From contig CAIXUG010000046.1 of the NCBI GenBank assembly GCA_903922605.1, positions 1 to 44,960 of the forward strand: a stretch of DNA of 44,960 nt, in the 5' to 3' direction. The DNA comes from an uncultured Verrucomicrobiota bacterium. GTDB lineage: Bacteria > Verrucomicrobiota > Verrucomicrobiia > Limisphaerales > UBA9464. Made by a program: the position numbers and the translations under genes. The notes under the pieces are model-generated. The model had not been told where the DNA came from. It did no database searches and saw only the letters and a program-made list of their open reading frames with translations. Below, in pieces: positions 2,184 through 28,551 of this stretch. Each line of letters starts with the position of its first letter. Within the stretch, counting starts at the first letter, position 1.

Positions 2184-2702
2184 TCAACGACGAACGACAC
2201 CGCCCAGCACACGGTCATTCGGGCGGAATCCCGTCCGGGTGAAGGGCGACCGGATAAGCCACCAGCCAAGGACGACAAACAGGACCCCGTTCGCCAGCCA
2301 GAGCATGTCGAACAGGAACTGATGCGGGTGACCGGGGAGAACGTGATGAATCCCAAGCAACTGATGATCAATCACGCCCTCCAGGAAATTGAACCCGCCG
2401 CATCCCGCCAGCATGGAGCCCGATAAAACCCGGCCGTTCCACCCCGCGCCAGCGTGACGTGGGGCGCGAAAAAGCATCACCGTTCCTGCCAGCGACACCA
2501 GCCAGAGACCCAAATGGAAGAATCCATCCTGCGTATTCTCAAGCTGGAGCTGCCCGATGGAGGTGGGCTGGCAATGCGGGGCATAGCAGACCAGATGATG
2601 CCAGCCGAGAATCTGATGAAGCACGATCCCGTCCGCAAAGCCGCCGAACCCCACGCCGAGCACCAGGCCGGCCCGGATCAACGGATTTCCAGGGATTGGC
2701 AT
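2184..2702 (-). CDS. DUF2243-family membrane protein
   Basis: This 172-residue protein has four hydrophobic segments. Its conserved residues, including GF.DGIVLHQILGWHH near the N-terminus, NLEGVIDHQLLGIHH-like histidines in the middle and H.H near residue 135, fit the DUF2243 (COG4329) family of predicted integral membrane proteins. The repeated H.ILGWHH / H.LLGIHH motifs suggest a metal or heme site within the membrane, which is inference. The biochemical role of the family is unknown. It is the last gene of the four-gene minus-strand operon: its ATG lies one base after the stop codon of the decarboxylase upstream, so translation is probably coupled. Confidence 0.85.
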   Translation of the reverse strand: MPIPGNPLIRAGLVLGVGFGGFADGIVLHQILGWHHLVCYAPHCQPTSIGQLQLENTQDGFFHLGLWLVSLAGTVMLFRAPRHAGAGWNGRVLSGSMLAGCGGFNFLEGVIDHQLLGIHHVLPGHPHQFLFDMLWLANGVLFVVLGWWLIRSPFTRTGFRPNDRVLGGVVRR

Positions 2703-2703
2703 A

Positions 2704-4407
2704 TTAGCAACCTTCGCCCGAATCGAGCTGATTGGCCTTCGCCATGGACCGTCCGGCGCTGCGCAGCGCCTCAGGACAATCCCAACGTCCGGTGTGAACC
2801 TCGATGAACACGAGACCGGCCGCTCCGGCCGCCTTCGTCAACGCGTCCTCGAGCTCCCCTTCCGTGCGGACCTCAAGACCCGGGCGGCCACCGAAAACCT
2901 CCATGAGCCGGTGATAGCGCCAGGGTTGAAGGTCATTATAGGGACGGTCGCAGATCACACGCTCAATCGTATAGCCGTCATTGTTGATGAGAAATAAGGC
3001 GCACGGAAGCTTTTGCCGGATGATGGTCGAGACATCCTGGCAGGTCACCTGGAAGGACCCGTCGCCAATGAACAGCACGAGGGGACGGCCGGGCCCCGCC
3101 AAACCGGCGCCCAAAGTGGCCCCGACCGTAAAACCGATTGATCCGTAGAAGCTCTGGCCGATGAAGGTCGCTCCCGCCGGCAGGAGCGTCTCGGCGGCGC
3201 AGAAGAGGGACACGCCCGTTTCGGCGATGACGATGGAATTGTCCGCCAGAAAATGACTCACGCGGTCGAAGAAGCGCCGGATCGTGATGGGTTTCGCCGC
3301 TTCAGGTTGATACGGCTCGGTGCGCCGGTGAACACAGCCGGCCGTGGCGCTATGAATTTCCAAGGTCGAGCGATCCCGGAGCGGGAGCTTTTCCGTCAGC
3401 CCCAGGATGAAATCGCGGAGCGACACGTTCTCGTAACAGCGATCCTTGATCTTCACGGAACGGATGTTCGCCCGGATTGACTTTGCCTCGTCGAGCTGGG
3501 CCGTGAAACCACCCGTGTTAAAATCGGTCAGCAGGGCTCCCAACTGCAGGATACAATCGGCTGATTCCACGCGCTGGCGCACGTAGTCGCGGCTCCGGTC
3601 ACCCTCGTAGAGGCCGATGAATTGCGGGTGCTGTTCCGAAAGGACGGTCTTGCCCAGCATCATCGTGGCATACGGGAATCCGGTCCTGCCGAGCAGGCCG
3701 GCGAATTCGCCCTGCAGTTTGAAGCGGATCAGCTCGACGTCGCCGATCACGACCGGCTTCCGGGACATGTTCAGCATCCCCAGCGCCTCCCTGACCGCTT
3801 CATGGAGCGCTGCCGGATCGCTGGCGGCCGGTGCCGGGAAAACAAATGCGCCGGGCCGGTTGCAGGTCATCAGCACCACGTCGGCAGGGATGCTGATGTA
3901 AACGGGCAGCCGCGTGAGAAGACAGGCCGACAACACCCGGTCAATCTCGGCGGGCGCAGTTTCGCCGCTCGCCAGCTGCGTGGCCGCGGTGGTGACGGAT
4001 TCATACATCCGCATGGGAATCTGATAATCGCCCAGCGTGTGATGCAGCAGCGGCCGCGTGCGAAAATAGGCCGTCGCGGGTGAGCCCGTGATCGCCACCA
4101 CCGGAACTTTCTCAGCAAAAGCCCCGGCCAGACCGTTGATGGCGCTCAATTCGCCGACGCCGTAGGTCGTGGCGAAGGCGCCGATACCATGGATGCGCGC
4201 GTATCCGTCAGCGGCGCAGGCGGCGTTGAGCTCGTTGCAGGTACCCACATAGGTGATGTCGCTTTTCAGCACCTGATTGAAAAAGCCCAGGACAAAATCT
4301 CCGGGCACACCGAACAGGTGATCCACGCCGATCTGTTTTAACCGGATAAGCAGGTATTCGGCCACGGTGACCCGGTCGTCCCTTGCCTGAATGGATTGGT
4401 GTAACAT
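2704..4407 (-). CDS. ThDP-dependent 2-oxo acid decarboxylase (pyruvate/indolepyruvate decarboxylase family)
   Basis: The 567-residue protein has the full three-domain layout and usual length of the pyruvate/indolepyruvate/phenylpyruvate decarboxylase family, which releases CO2 from a 2-oxo acid to give an aldehyde. Family catalytic residues are visible: Asp37 in GVPGDF, Glu59 in CNELNAA (the cofactor-activating glutamate), the His122-His123 pair in LLHHTLGD, and the ThDP-Mg motif GDGSFQVT...NNDGYTIE with the expected glutamate. The His pair separates it from acetolactate synthases. The natural substrate cannot be read from the sequence. It starts 11 bases after the stop of the PSD-like gene and ends one base before the DUF2243 gene, so it is part of an operon. 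The two neighbouring decarboxylases suggest linked amino-acid or keto-acid metabolism, but this is inference. Confidence 0.88.
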   Translation of the reverse strand: MLHQSIQARDDRVTVAEYLLIRLKQIGVDHLFGVPGDFVLGFFNQVLKSDITYVGTCNELNAACAADGYARIHGIGAFATTYGVGELSAINGLAGAFAEKVPVVAITGSPATAYFRTRPLLHHTLGDYQIPMRMYESVTTAATQLASGETAPAEIDRVLSACLLTRLPVYISIPADVVLMTCNRPGAFVFPAPAASDPAALHEAVREALGMLNMSRKPVVIGDVELIRFKLQGEFAGLLGRTGFPYATMMLGKTVLSEQHPQFIGLYEGDRSRDYVRQRVESADCILQLGALLTDFNTGGFTAQLDEAKSIRANIRSVKIKDRCYENVSLRDFILGLTEKLPLRDRSTLEIHSATAGCVHRRTEPYQPEAAKPITIRRFFDRVSHFLADNSIVIAETGVSLFCAAETLLPAGATFIGQSFYGSIGFTVGATLGAGLAGPGRPLVLFIGDGSFQVTCQDVSTIIRQKLPCALFLINNDGYTIERVICDRPYNDLQPWRYHRLMEVFGGRPGLEVRTEGELEDALTKAAGAAGLVFIEVHTGRWDCPEALRSAGRSMAKANQLDSGEGC

Positions 4408-4418
4408 GGTGAGACTGC

Positions 4419-5465
4419 CTACACGGGGTCAGGCCGACTGTTGATTGCCTGGCCGATTTCTCTCCCTTGGTTATAATGGCTGCCGACCGTGGCATCGAGC
4501 CGGACCCGGCCTGCCTCGAAAAGGGTCACGATGTCCGAACCGCCAAAGGAAAAGAATCCAAACTCCTCCCCCTTGCGAAGCGCCGCGCCCACCTCGGCGG
4601 TGAGATTTACGGACGAGACCTGCGCCATGCCGATCGGCAGCACCGCCACGCAGCCCAATGGGGAATCCAGCACGATCAACCCCCGGTCCTGCGCAAATTG
4701 GTAGCCGGTCCCGTCGACAATCCCGAGTGATCCGTCAGGCCTACTGACCACGTCCATGGTCGCCTGGCCCGGAATCTTGCGCGCCTCCCTGACCACGCCG
4801 GCCACCGGAACGTGGAACCAGTGGTAGTCATTGATGTTCAGAAAGCTGTGCGTAAAGATTCCACCCCGGAATTTGTCCTGATACGGACTGCCTTCAAGGA
4901 GATCAAATATCGACCACGTCAATCCCTTCACCGTGATCTTCGAGTCGTCCTGGATCGCCCATTGCCCTTGGAAGACGCTGTCTGCCGGAGAAACGATGAT
5001 GCTGTCATCGCTCCAGGAATCCACCGGCCGCTTCCCGGGCCGCACCTGGCGCGCGAAAAACTGGTTGAACGTCAGCCATCCGCTCGGCGCCACGTAATAA
5101 TCCCCCAGATGGTAGTCGGGGTTGGAGAGGAAGCTGGGGATATCCCGCGCGGATTCCGTGGTGTCGAGAAAGGCCCCCCAATCCTTGGCGAACTTGCAAA
5201 CCCATTGCTGAAAGGACGCGTCCCGTTGCAAGACACCCCCGGGAGACAGGGCGATGAGATAATAGAACTTCAGGACAAACGGGTTCAAATCCCTGTCCCT
5301 TGGGATCAACGTGACCATCTCATCCAAGAAGTCGTAATACTGCGGCAGGGTCGCAATCCCCGGGCGGACCGCCTTGCGGATTGATTCCTGGAGGGCTTCC
5401 GCCAGTTTCGGCATCGCTTCCAGAAGCGCGATCAGTTCAATGACGATGGGTTGATGGTGGGTCAT
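4419..5465 (-). CDS. Phosphatidylserine-decarboxylase-like pyruvoyl enzyme
   Basis: The protein has 348 residues. The C-terminal two thirds match the phosphatidylserine decarboxylase fold (FNQFFAR.VRPG.RP near 130-145, SPADS near 160, H..NINDYHWFH.PV.G near 210-225). The N-terminal ~100 residues resemble the PSDC-associated domain (PF12588) found in soluble PSD-like proteins. The self-processing site, normally LGST, reads FGGSD here, with Ser310 as the predicted pyruvoyl precursor. This variant, the absence of a membrane anchor and the extra N-terminal domain point away from the ordinary lipid enzyme. They point toward PSD-like decarboxylases acting on small molecules, a group that includes the fungal tryptophan decarboxylase PsiD. 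The substrate is unknown. The gene is second in the operon, 56 bases after the cytochrome gene. Confidence 0.82.
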   Translation of the reverse strand: MTHHQPIVIELIALLEAMPKLAEALQESIRKAVRPGIATLPQYYDFLDEMVTLIPRDRDLNPFVLKFYYLIALSPGGVLQRDASFQQWVCKFAKDWGAFLDTTESARDIPSFLSNPDYHLGDYYVAPSGWLTFNQFFARQVRPGKRPVDSWSDDSIIVSPADSVFQGQWAIQDDSKITVKGLTWSIFDLLEGSPYQDKFRGGIFTHSFLNINDYHWFHVPVAGVVREARKIPGQATMDVVSRPDGSLGIVDGTGYQFAQDRGLIVLDSPLGCVAVLPIGMAQVSSVNLTAEVGAALRKGEEFGFFSFGGSDIVTLFEAGRVRLDATVGSHYNQGREIGQAINSRPDPV

Positions 5466-5521
5466 GATTCCAAATGTCCGGCCTGGTTGTGACTGGCTTC
5501 AATCCACGGGGTGTGGCCACG

Positions 5522-6904
5522 TCACAACGCCCGCAAAAAGGCCAGCAGATCGCCCTTTTCCGCCGCGCTGAGCTTGGATCCCAAAATCAGGTTAAAGAAC
5601 TCGATGGCGTCCTCCAGGGTCAGCAATCGGCCGTCATGGAGGTAAGGCGGGGAATCCTTGATCCCGCGCAGTGGGAACGTCTTGATCGGGCCGTCCGCAC
5701 TGGCGACCCGGCCTTGGAGGGTGCGGGTCTTGAAAAACCGCTCCACCTGGAGGTTGTGCATCGTGTTGTCGGTGTAATAAGGCGGTGTGTGGCAGGCCGC
5801 GCATTGCGCTTTGCCAAAGAAAAGGTCCTGGCCGCGAAGCTCGGAGGCGGAGGCCTTTTCCGGAATTAACCGTCCGAACAGGTCGAGCTTGGGCGCGGGC
5901 GGAAAATCGAGCAGCTCCTGAAACTCCGCCATGAAATGGACCTGGCTGCCCCGCTCCAGGATATTTGCCCCCTTCTTGGTGGCGAGCACCGGATCACCAT
6001 CAAAGTACGCCGCCCGCTGTTCAAACTCGGTGAAGTCCTCCACGGTCTTCAGGGCCCGTTGCGAGCCGAAAAGGCGCTGGATGTTCACGCCCCGGAGCGA
6101 CGGCGTATCGATCCGATGGCGGTATTCCTGCGGCCGCACGTCACCGGCAAGATGCGTCGCGCCGTTGGCGTGGCCGTTGGCATGGCAATCGAAGCAGGCC
6201 ACGCCCCGGCTCGGCCGTTCGGAACGGCGGTCGCCGGTCTGATTGAACTGCTGCTGGGGAAACGGGGTCAGCAGCAGTCGCAGCCCCTCGATCTGCTTCG
6301 GATTCAGAATGCCGTCGAACAGCTCAAAATAGTTGTCGATGGTGACGAGCTTGCCCTGGGAGACGTCGCCGAGGTCCGGGCGTGTGGTCAAAAAGATCGG
6401 CGCGGGAAATTCCGGGAGAAAGTGATCGGGCAGATCAAAATCCAGATCGAACCGCGTCAAATCCCGCCCTTCCTGCCGCTTGATTTCGGCGATCTCAAAC
6501 AGCGGAAACACCATGCCGCCCTCCGGGTGATTCGGATGCGGCAGCGGCAGAAAACCCGGCGGAAACAAATCGCCGTCGCGGATTTCCCCGGGTGTCAGCG
6601 TGCCCAGCCTCTCCCAGCTGGTGCCGGGGGCGAGTTTTACCCGGATGCCCTGTTGGACGGGCTTGCCGCGGGTCATGGCAATCCCGGGCGAGGGATCGTT
6701 GCGCAAATCGTAACGCGTCTGCAGAAGTTCCGCCTGCCGTTTCGTCACGGCGGCCTTCTCCGCTTTCATCCGGACCATCGTGGCGGAGAACTCCTCCTTC
6801 GGGACCACGGGTGAGTAGCTCGATTTTCTTTCCTCCTGTCCCAGTAACGAGCTGCCGCAACATGATGTCATCAGGACCAGCAATGGCATCATATTGCGTT
6901 TCAT
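5522..6904 (-). CDS. Secreted di-heme c-type cytochrome, cytochrome c peroxidase/MauG-like
   Basis: The 460-residue protein begins with a short hydrophobic export signal containing a Cys pair near residue 15 (possible lipoprotein signal, not a perfect lipobox). Two c-type heme motifs are present: CFDCH near residue 235 and CAACH near residue 366. The C-terminal signature F.LRGI.DSPPYLHDGRL.TLEDAIEFFN is typical of the bacterial di-heme peroxidase / MauG superfamily. It is longer than classical CcpA (about 320-340 residues) because of about 200 extra N-terminal residues. It should act in the periplasm in electron transfer or oxidation. It is the first gene of the minus-strand operon. The 5' leader (6905-7119) shows no clear promoter, only a CCCTATAGGG palindrome at 7045-7054. 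Confidence 0.85.
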   Translation of the reverse strand: MKRNMMPLLVLMTSCCGSSLLGQEERKSSYSPVVPKEEFSATMVRMKAEKAAVTKRQAELLQTRYDLRNDPSPGIAMTRGKPVQQGIRVKLAPGTSWERLGTLTPGEIRDGDLFPPGFLPLPHPNHPEGGMVFPLFEIAEIKRQEGRDLTRFDLDFDLPDHFLPEFPAPIFLTTRPDLGDVSQGKLVTIDNYFELFDGILNPKQIEGLRLLLTPFPQQQFNQTGDRRSERPSRGVACFDCHANGHANGATHLAGDVRPQEYRHRIDTPSLRGVNIQRLFGSQRALKTVEDFTEFEQRAAYFDGDPVLATKKGANILERGSQVHFMAEFQELLDFPPAPKLDLFGRLIPEKASASELRGQDLFFGKAQCAACHTPPYYTDNTMHNLQVERFFKTRTLQGRVASADGPIKTFPLRGIKDSPPYLHDGRLLTLEDAIEFFNLILGSKLSAAEKGDLLAFLRAL

Positions 6905-7119: not shown

Positions 7120-7599
7120 ATCGGTCCTTGGCAACAACGCGGCTCAGGGTAAAAACCTCTGCGCTATTGCCTCCGCCCTGCGGGAATCACCCTGCGGACG
7201 AACTTCACCTCCACCACGGTGCGCAGCTTCCTGACCAACCGCGTGGTCAATTCGTCGCGCACCGACACGGTCCTGGCGGTCGGGATCGACATCTGCCAGA
7301 CCCGGACTGTGACCGCCGCCGCCAACTGCCTCGGCCCGGTCGATCCAAGCACCCTGGCCATTCTGCCGCCGCTGGCCGGCCCGGCCATCAGCCTTCCCGC
7401 CTTCGCCAATGGCCAGTTCCCCCTCTCCTTCCCCACGGAGAACGGGAAATCATACACGGTGCAATTTAAGAACGACCTGAGCGACCCGGTCTGGACCGAC
7501 CTGCAAACGCTCGTCGGCAACGGCGGCAATCTGCCCGTCATGGATGCGGAAGCGGCCCAACACCAGGCCCGGTATTATCGGATCCTGGCGAAGCCCTGA
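7120..7599 (+). pseudogene. Decayed 3' end of a paralogue of the surface protein at 2-1837
   Basis: From about 7120 on, the DNA aligns with 1350-1837 of the first gene. The matches include RTVTAAANCLGPV, ILPPL versus ILPLS, the V.FK..LSDPVWTDL stretch and the Q.ARYYRIL ending. Upstream of about 7175 the match continues at DNA level but the reading frame is broken: the segment equivalent to NLFYYLR carries a 2-base insertion. No signal peptide, DUF11 or complete blade repeat remains. A 126-residue open frame (7219-7599) survives but has no plausible start context. It is best read as a gene remnant. The minus-strand operon lies between this remnant and the intact copy. Confidence 0.75.
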
Positions 7600-7702
7600 G
7601 AAACGCAATGGAGGTGCGTGCGTCCGCCTTCCAATGGCAGGACGGCTGGCTGGCTGGCTGGACCTTGGCGCCGCCCCATCCAGGGGGTGCGCGGCGCGCG
7701 GC

Positions 7703-28269: not shown

Positions 28270-28442
28270 GGCCCTTCGGAGCCGGCATCGTTTCAAAACA
28301 ACACTGGAAGTGCGGGAACCCCGTGAGAATCGGGGACGGTAGCGCCACTGTATCGGGACACAAACCCCCAGGTCGCAAGACAGCCACTGGATGCAAGTCT
28401 GGGAAGGCGGGGATGAGGTTTACGCCCGGAGTCAGGACATCG
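28270..28442 (+). promoter_or_regulatory. Cobalamin (vitamin B12) riboswitch
   Basis: The conserved core of the adenosylcobalamin aptamer is plain: GGGAA at 28315-28319, then CCCGTGAGAATCGGGGACGG (28320-28339) and CGCCACTGT (the B12 box, about 28343-28351). AGCCACTGG (28382-28390) and GGGAAGGC (28401-28408) follow, with a closing GGAGTCAGGACA near 28428-28439. The order and spacing fit the family. A rho-independent terminator 110 bases downstream makes it a transcriptional off-switch: B12 binding should stop transcription of the three genes at 28679-31692. The 5' boundary is approximate. Confidence 0.95.
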
Positions 28443-28551
28443 CGCCAGGGTTGCTCGTCAGGCCGTGCCTCGGGTGCGGCCGCTTCGCCGCCAAGCGAAG
28501 GATGAGGCCAGCCGGGCCGCCTGTCTGCGCGCCCGGACTTGTGGATGCCAC

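Follow-up and report, generated by a model that had tools for sequence, protein, structure and literature searches.

What might four closely spaced genes of an uncultured Verrucomicrobiota bacterium, encoding a di-heme c-type cytochrome, a protein resembling the pyruvoyl enzyme phosphatidylserine decarboxylase (PSD), a thiamine diphosphate (ThDP)-dependent 2-oxo-acid decarboxylase (hereafter KDC) and a His-rich DUF2243 membrane protein, do together? They lie on contig CAIXUG010000046.1 (assembly GCA_903922605.1), of which positions 1 to 44,960 form the window analyzed here. An earlier note on this DNA had described them as four genes in this order that make up one unit. The open reading frame coordinates agree, with all four genes on the minus strand and gaps of 56, 11 and 1 bases between successive genes (Table 1), and from this spacing and the shared strand we infer that the four are co-transcribed. 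Promoter and terminator scans of the cluster were uninformative either way (3 versus 1.2 expected and 5 versus 5.8 expected, respectively), and the GC content of the four genes was 59.1 to 61.6% versus 63.2 to 66.8% in five neighboring frames. Our best explanation, a tentative one that we would place just short of an even chance, is a probably acquired operon of two modules that combines decarboxylation of pyruvate and of an amino acid with envelope redox chemistry for survival under low oxygen or stress.

We looked first at the KDC, which carries the three TPP_enzyme domains (N, M and C; Pfam scan) and whose best NCBIfam score was to the indolepyruvate decarboxylase model TIGR03393 (428.2 bits, not reaching the curated cut-off of 946). 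We aligned 10 rows of its subfamily with KdcA and yeast pyruvate decarboxylase (PDC), using pocket residue numbers and roles that, S286 excepted, we take to be those of the characterized enzymes. The catalytic Asp, Glu, His-His and Glu were kept in 10/10 rows, a pattern that is common to the family's other decarboxylases and thus not specific. All 10 rows matched yeast PDC in having Thr at the position of KdcA Gln377 and in both Ile residues after GYT, and 9 of the 10 matched it in having Phe at the position of KdcA S286 (Leu in L146). S286 is named as an engineering site of Kivd in a directed-evolution paper (PMC12312269). Pyruvate is favored as the substrate because the pocket is mostly like that of yeast PDC and because of the gene partners described next, and the KDC is probably a pyruvate decarboxylase of a fermentation and stress gene pool, converting pyruvate to acetaldehyde.

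KDC relatives of 60 to 76% identity were found in ten genomes, the window's included. Within the window's order they were present in 4 of 293 genomes (L170, L171, L172 and the window's); outside it they occurred in an Elusimicrobium (L146), a Sericytochromatium (L033) and one Myxococcales order (L014, L019, L147 and L231). A Zn-dehydrogenase (ADH_N/ADH_zinc_N) adjoins the relative in L014, L019, L033, L147 and L170; pyruvate kinase lies near it in L033 and L170, enolase in L033, phosphoenolpyruvate synthase in L231, phosphoketolase in L172 and zwf in L171. L033 has KDC, dehydrogenase, pyruvate kinase, enolase and PSD in a single run, and no fermentation-type partner was recognized in the open reading frame list around the L146 relative. 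The same dehydrogenase subfamily (63 to 65% identical to that of L033) stands in Elusimicrobia L010 and L148 beside another ThDP subfamily, which is 37 to 39% identical to the window's KDC and has the motifs ETG-SWF and NDYTT-GWT, presumably those of a Zymomonas-type pocket. In the PDB, the L010 enzyme matched an ancestral construct best, followed by bacterial pyruvate decarboxylases; both enzymes were under the TIGR03393 cut-off, that of L148 being judged by its motifs and this score only. Moreover, stress-type genes occur near KDC or cytochrome relatives (Dps, GrpE, DnaJ, BON and RNB exonuclease in L170, RNB in L208, ferritin in L171, and PRC-barrel in L231 and, by similarity, in L203 to L205), which agrees with a low-oxygen or stress role.

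The PSD-like protein matched PF02666 (2.6e-46, 158.3 bits versus a gathering score of 22) and stayed under the cut-off of the phosphatidylserine decarboxylase equivalog TIGR00163 (92.3 bits versus 111.75). Across 53 aligned rows, G308, G309 and S310 were invariant (53/53), as were D162 and H215, and H218 was kept in at least 90%; we take the latter three to be PSD self-processing residues. The protein is predicted to cleave itself at the Ser of its FGGS motif (S310), where E. coli PSD has LGST. Its AlphaFold model (pLDDT 89.5, pTM 0.84) aligned with PsiD over 297 residues, model residues 2 to 307 (Z = 21.5, root mean square deviation 4.0), with the A. oryzae arginine decarboxylase over 294 residues (Z = 19.8, deviation 4.2) and with E. 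coli PSD over 203 residues, model residues 87 to 307 (Z = 15.9, deviation 3.0). These fold matches indicate that an N-terminal helical domain is common to the PSD-like protein and the soluble amino-acid decarboxylases. Judged from the model, it is probably a soluble decarboxylase that makes an amine from a free amino acid, and the amino-acid decarboxylation proposed in the earlier note is thus probable for this protein. In two Myxococcales loci, a gene of the diaminopimelate epimerase family lies downstream of the PSD-like gene (L014:9420-10286 and L019:8449-9309), a hint at a possible substrate. Tandem PSD-like genes were seen in L016:3172-5338 (Bacteroidetes; two copies of 58 to 59%), and relatives of 35 to 36% and of 26 to 28% stand side by side in L056, L058, L063, L067 and L072 (Flavobacteriaceae and similar loci).

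Next, we examined how the PSD-like gene is distributed and what surrounds it. Among the best 80 of 93 relatives in a contig scan, 19 had at least 64% identity; they came from Verrucomicrobiota, Elusimicrobia, Proteobacteria, Myxococcales, Chloroflexota, Sericytochromatia and one Aerophobetes contig. Clear fermentation-type genes lay near the PSD-like gene in 5 of 18 other loci at this level of identity (the incomplete L035 was left out of the count): phosphoketolase, acetate kinase, transaldolase and zwf in L004; a dehydrogenase, a pyruvate-decarboxylase-type enzyme and the start of a phosphoketolase in L010; a dehydrogenase and KDC in both L014 and L019; and the run in L033. L003 had a 35% acetate-kinase-like match and L015 a 24% match to a P-type ATPase. 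At 35 to 43% identity, 1 of 44 PSD-like loci matched the fermentation and stress queries, and none of 66 controls did (258 kb, shorter than the test loci). This enrichment is partly circular, the queries having been drawn from KDC and cytochrome loci and from L033; the matches in L004, L010, L014 and L019 are not self-hits.

We then searched 35 PSD-carrying genomes, at least three of them from the window's order, for the KDC. It was present at 60% identity or more in five, lying 0.4 to 4.1 kb from the PSD-like gene in three (on the opposite strand in L014 and L019, on the same strand in L033) and on another contig in two. Under random placement in a 6-Mb genome, such proximity in three of five has a binomial probability of 1e-7, or 3e-5 when L014 and L019 are counted once. 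Furthermore, in one Myxococcales order, 4 of 22 genomes had KDC and 3 had the PSD-like gene, with an overlap of three (P = 0.0026, and 0.014 without G013, both uncorrected for kinship). The earlier note had looked to adjacency of the two decarboxylase genes across bacteria as a check; closer-than-chance linkage does extend to L014, L019 and L033, whereas direct adjacency on one strand was seen, among the loci fetched, in the window only.

The cytochrome had no Pfam match at 0.001, and it scored 41 bits against the MauG model TIGR03791 (cut-off, 443.85) and was also far under the cut-offs of TIGR03981 and TIGR04039. Its C-terminal part resembles the di-heme peroxidase 1iqc (PDB search, 3.6e-07), its two CxxCH motifs (C237-C240-H241 and C368-C371-H372) were invariant in 22/22 aligned rows, and its N terminus is hydrophobic and, by eye, signal-peptide-like; the protein is probably exported. 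The DUF2243 protein matched PF10002 (1.2e-42, 145.8 bits versus a gathering score of 25), with H29, H35, H63, H113, H119 and H120 invariant in 7/7 rows; an open-access literature search found no paper on DUF2243. Of 293 genomes sampled from the window's order, 21 had the cytochrome (E 1e-30), a count that includes the window's own genome. It was also present in 7 of the 35 PSD-like-carrying genomes (E 1e-20), one of which, G011, is by its coordinates identical with the congener G099. We compared 17 cytochrome neighborhoods (15 fetched, L171 and the window) and found DUF2243 close by on the same strand, with at most three genes between, in 7, the window included. The two genes overlap by 4 bases in L171, L206 and L207; in L214 (Myxococcales) DUF2243 is the next gene after the cytochrome (38%); one gene, a low-affinity iron permease, lies between them in L203 and three genes in L204. 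L171, from another family of the order, has cytochrome, DUF2243 and KDC on one strand, with no PSD found in the stretch. Because the pair recurs at 7 of 17 loci, the PSD-like and KDC genes of the window appear to sit inside a recurrent cytochrome/DUF2243 pair, which suggests an inner module nested within an outer one. As a separate observation, the low-affinity iron permease (PF04120) directly follows the di-heme cytochrome in L203, L204 and L208.

Cluster-type genes show a patchy distribution, and the cluster was probably acquired horizontally. We draw this from the sister genome G172, a congener, which is 94 to 96% identical to the window from position 7702 through 11648, where the compared piece ends, and had no match to the PSD-like protein (E 1e-3), the KDC (1e-60) or the cytochrome (1e-30; DUF2243 was not among the queries). 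In the congeners G099 and G329 there are PSD-like genes of 70% and 68%; KDC, cytochrome and DUF2243 were not found in the stretch fetched around these, and G099 has a 76% cytochrome at another place. The best trees placed the window's PSD with two Opitutae (89/80) rather than with the congeners and the cytochrome in an unresolved group that includes the congener; by path, the KDC lay closest to L171. On either side of the cluster lies one copy of a direct repeat of about 430 bases. The copies are 76% identical, and the right one resembles what a truncated paralogue of gene 2-1837 would retain at its 3' end. A clean empty site was not shown, the G172 alignment starting at window position 7702 and the window contig ending at base 1. 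Beyond the alignment start, G172 has genes that by eye resemble kdp and a sigma factor, and a 2,571-base piece of its flank gave only short matches of 67 to 96% in the window's genome, G000. A phage origin was rejected, IMG/VR holding no KDC relative; PSD-like genes of 48% were seen there on three contigs labelled viral (L227, L228 and L229, one of 416 kb). A plasmid origin was rejected as well, since the matches in plasmid records (46 for PSD and 119 for KDC at E 1e-60) were all below 60% identity. Elsewhere in the window, a Cobalamin riboswitch was detected on the plus strand at 28271-28463 (64.2 bits versus a gathering score of 31.5).

Table 1. Coordinates of the cluster genes and of the repeat copies flanking them (window positions)
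Feature	Position	Strand	Remarks
Di-heme c-type cytochrome gene	5522-6904	minus	460 aa, first gene of cluster
PSD-like pyruvoyl decarboxylase gene	4419-5465	minus	348 aa
ThDP-dependent 2-oxo-acid decarboxylase (KDC) gene	2704-4407	minus	567 aa
DUF2243 His-rich membrane protein gene	2184-2702	minus	172 aa
Left copy of flanking direct repeat	1433-1860	plus	3' end of gene 2-1837
Right copy of flanking direct repeat	7198-7622	plus	frame 7219-7599

A number of results weigh against the explanation that we favor. The best PDB scores of the KDC were to KivD and KdcA, its identity is similar to KdcA (40%) and yeast PDC (37%), and at one pocket position, Ala in yeast PDC and Phe381 in KdcA, 9 of the 10 subfamily rows have Leu (Ile in L146). 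The Zn-dehydrogenase of L170 scored below every NCBIfam cut-off (best models, scyllo-inosose dehydrogenase and threonine dehydrogenase), and ethanol as the dehydrogenase product is a guess because this copy has no assigned substrate. A single-sequence PDB search with the PSD-like protein ranked E. coli PSD (3.1e-17) slightly over PsiD (2.2e-13), an order that a profile search reversed (6.1e-28 for PsiD versus 3.1e-24). In the stretch examined, 13 of the 18 close PSD-like loci lacked a clear fermentation gene, none of 17 loci of 47 to 61% identity matched the fermentation and stress queries, and 0 of 22 such queries matched the window. In the 293 genomes of the window's order, moreover, a close PSD-like gene (three genomes) and a close KDC (four) co-occur solely in the window's. 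Finally, approximately unbiased tests on PSD and cytochrome did not reach phylogenetic proof of transfer: they failed to reject a grouping with the congeners for either PSD (P = 0.27) or the cytochrome (P = 0.37), and the P value for PSD with the Verrucomicrobiota together was 0.17.

These points bear on three other explanations. The earlier note had proposed decarboxylation of amino acids or keto acids to amine or aldehyde, with periplasmic electron transfer through the cytochrome and DUF2243. We consider this unlikely when it is read as an Ehrlich-like pathway that acts on aromatic or branched 2-oxo acids and has these two proteins as its electron outlet. The KDC's leading TIGR03393 and KivD/KdcA scores would fit such a pathway, as would the PsiD-like fold, and the Zn-dehydrogenase beside KDC relatives, having no assigned substrate, could reduce other aldehydes. 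However, the TIGR03393 score is less than half its cut-off, and in spite of the PDB ranking the mostly PDC-like pocket and the glycolytic genes nearby favor pyruvate. The sole aminotransferase family among the 25 neighbor families listed was class V (2/91), and a second listing had none. Neither enzyme class carries out redox chemistry in a simple decarboxylation. Because of this, and because the cytochrome-DUF2243 pair also occurs without PSD and KDC, a single electron-linked pathway is unsupported.

That the modules are functionally unrelated and the four genes adjacent by an accident of insertion seems to us doubtful. The arrangement in L171 argues against it, as do the PSD and KDC genes lying no more than about 4 kb apart in L014, L019 and L033 and the Myxococcales overlap in 3 of 22 genomes, with the kinship proviso given above. 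The exact four-gene order was nevertheless seen, among the loci fetched, solely in the window, cytochrome-DUF2243 and KDC-dehydrogenase each occur alone, and the PSD-like gene is mostly found in differing neighborhoods, all as an accident would have it. It is highly unlikely that the PSD-like protein acts on phosphatidylserine and so serves lipid remodelling. We rejected a housekeeping PSD, the simplest reading, since the window's genome has a separate canonical short PSD (G000:C52:58609-59124), as the congeners do, and the fold fits PsiD better. Its full-length match to soluble amino-acid decarboxylases, the score under the TIGR00163 cut-off and FGGS in place of LGST point the same way; the PF02666 match, the top rank of E. 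coli PSD in the single-sequence search and the conserved residues that we take to serve self-processing point toward a lipid enzyme.

In the two-module operon that we favor, the KDC would convert pyruvate to acetaldehyde and CO2, and a Zn-dehydrogenase encoded outside the window could reduce the acetaldehyde and so re-oxidize NADH. The PSD-like enzyme would turn an amino acid and a proton into an amine and CO2, consuming protons, and the cytochrome and DUF2243 probably form a redox or metal/heme-handling pair at the envelope that would dispose of peroxide or electrons. Their joint role would be to help the cell survive oxygen limitation or stress, a single pathway that links the four products being conjectural. 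A broader reading, which we find doubtful, is that a PsiD-like decarboxylase recurs in mobile fermentation islands (pyruvate decarboxylase plus Zn-dehydrogenase, or phosphoketolase plus acetate kinase) across Verrucomicrobiota, Elusimicrobiota, Myxococcota, Sericytochromatia and Proteobacteria, and that the window joins it with envelope redox functions for anoxic survival. To our knowledge, pyruvate decarboxylase is uncommon in bacteria; if the KDC subfamily is active on pyruvate, bacteria would have one more lineage of this enzyme, which occurs in several phyla with dehydrogenase and glycolytic genes next to it. Through the PSD-like protein, the soluble amino-acid decarboxylases of the PSD family, represented here by fungal structures, would likewise gain a bacterial branch whose physiological setting can be tested, and DUF2243 gains the di-heme cytochrome as a recurrent neighbor. 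Our open-access literature search found no paper on the PSD-family or pyruvoyl topic and, among the papers listed and judged by titles and the beginnings of abstracts, no such bacterial gene cluster.

How does the cluster compare with known systems? The lxa locus of Burkholderia cenocepacia is described as a set of low-oxygen-activated genes with predicted roles in metabolism, transport and electron transfer (PMC6127331). The likeness is an analogy of possible working only, an island with such roles. Like MauG and the di-heme cytochrome c peroxidases, the window's cytochrome has two CxxCH motifs and a similar C-terminal heme region, and it differs from them in lacking a Pfam match and in scoring far under the curated cut-offs. 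The KDC shares the ThDP fold and catalytic residues of yeast and bacterial PDC and the Thr, Phe, Ile and Ile pocket residues of the yeast enzyme; it differs in forming a subfamily of its own, in a two-residue deletion after HHTL and in the Leu at one pocket position. Several loci pair a KDC relative with a Zn-dehydrogenase, as is known for PDC, and the window has no dehydrogenase. Unlike the fungal PsiD and arginine decarboxylase, the PSD-like protein is bacterial and about 20% identical to them in structural alignment; with both PsiD, an L-tryptophan decarboxylase, and the A. oryzae enzyme its model nonetheless shares a fold of about 295 residues, the N-terminal helical domain included, and the alignment runs as far as FGG, where the PsiD chain ends.

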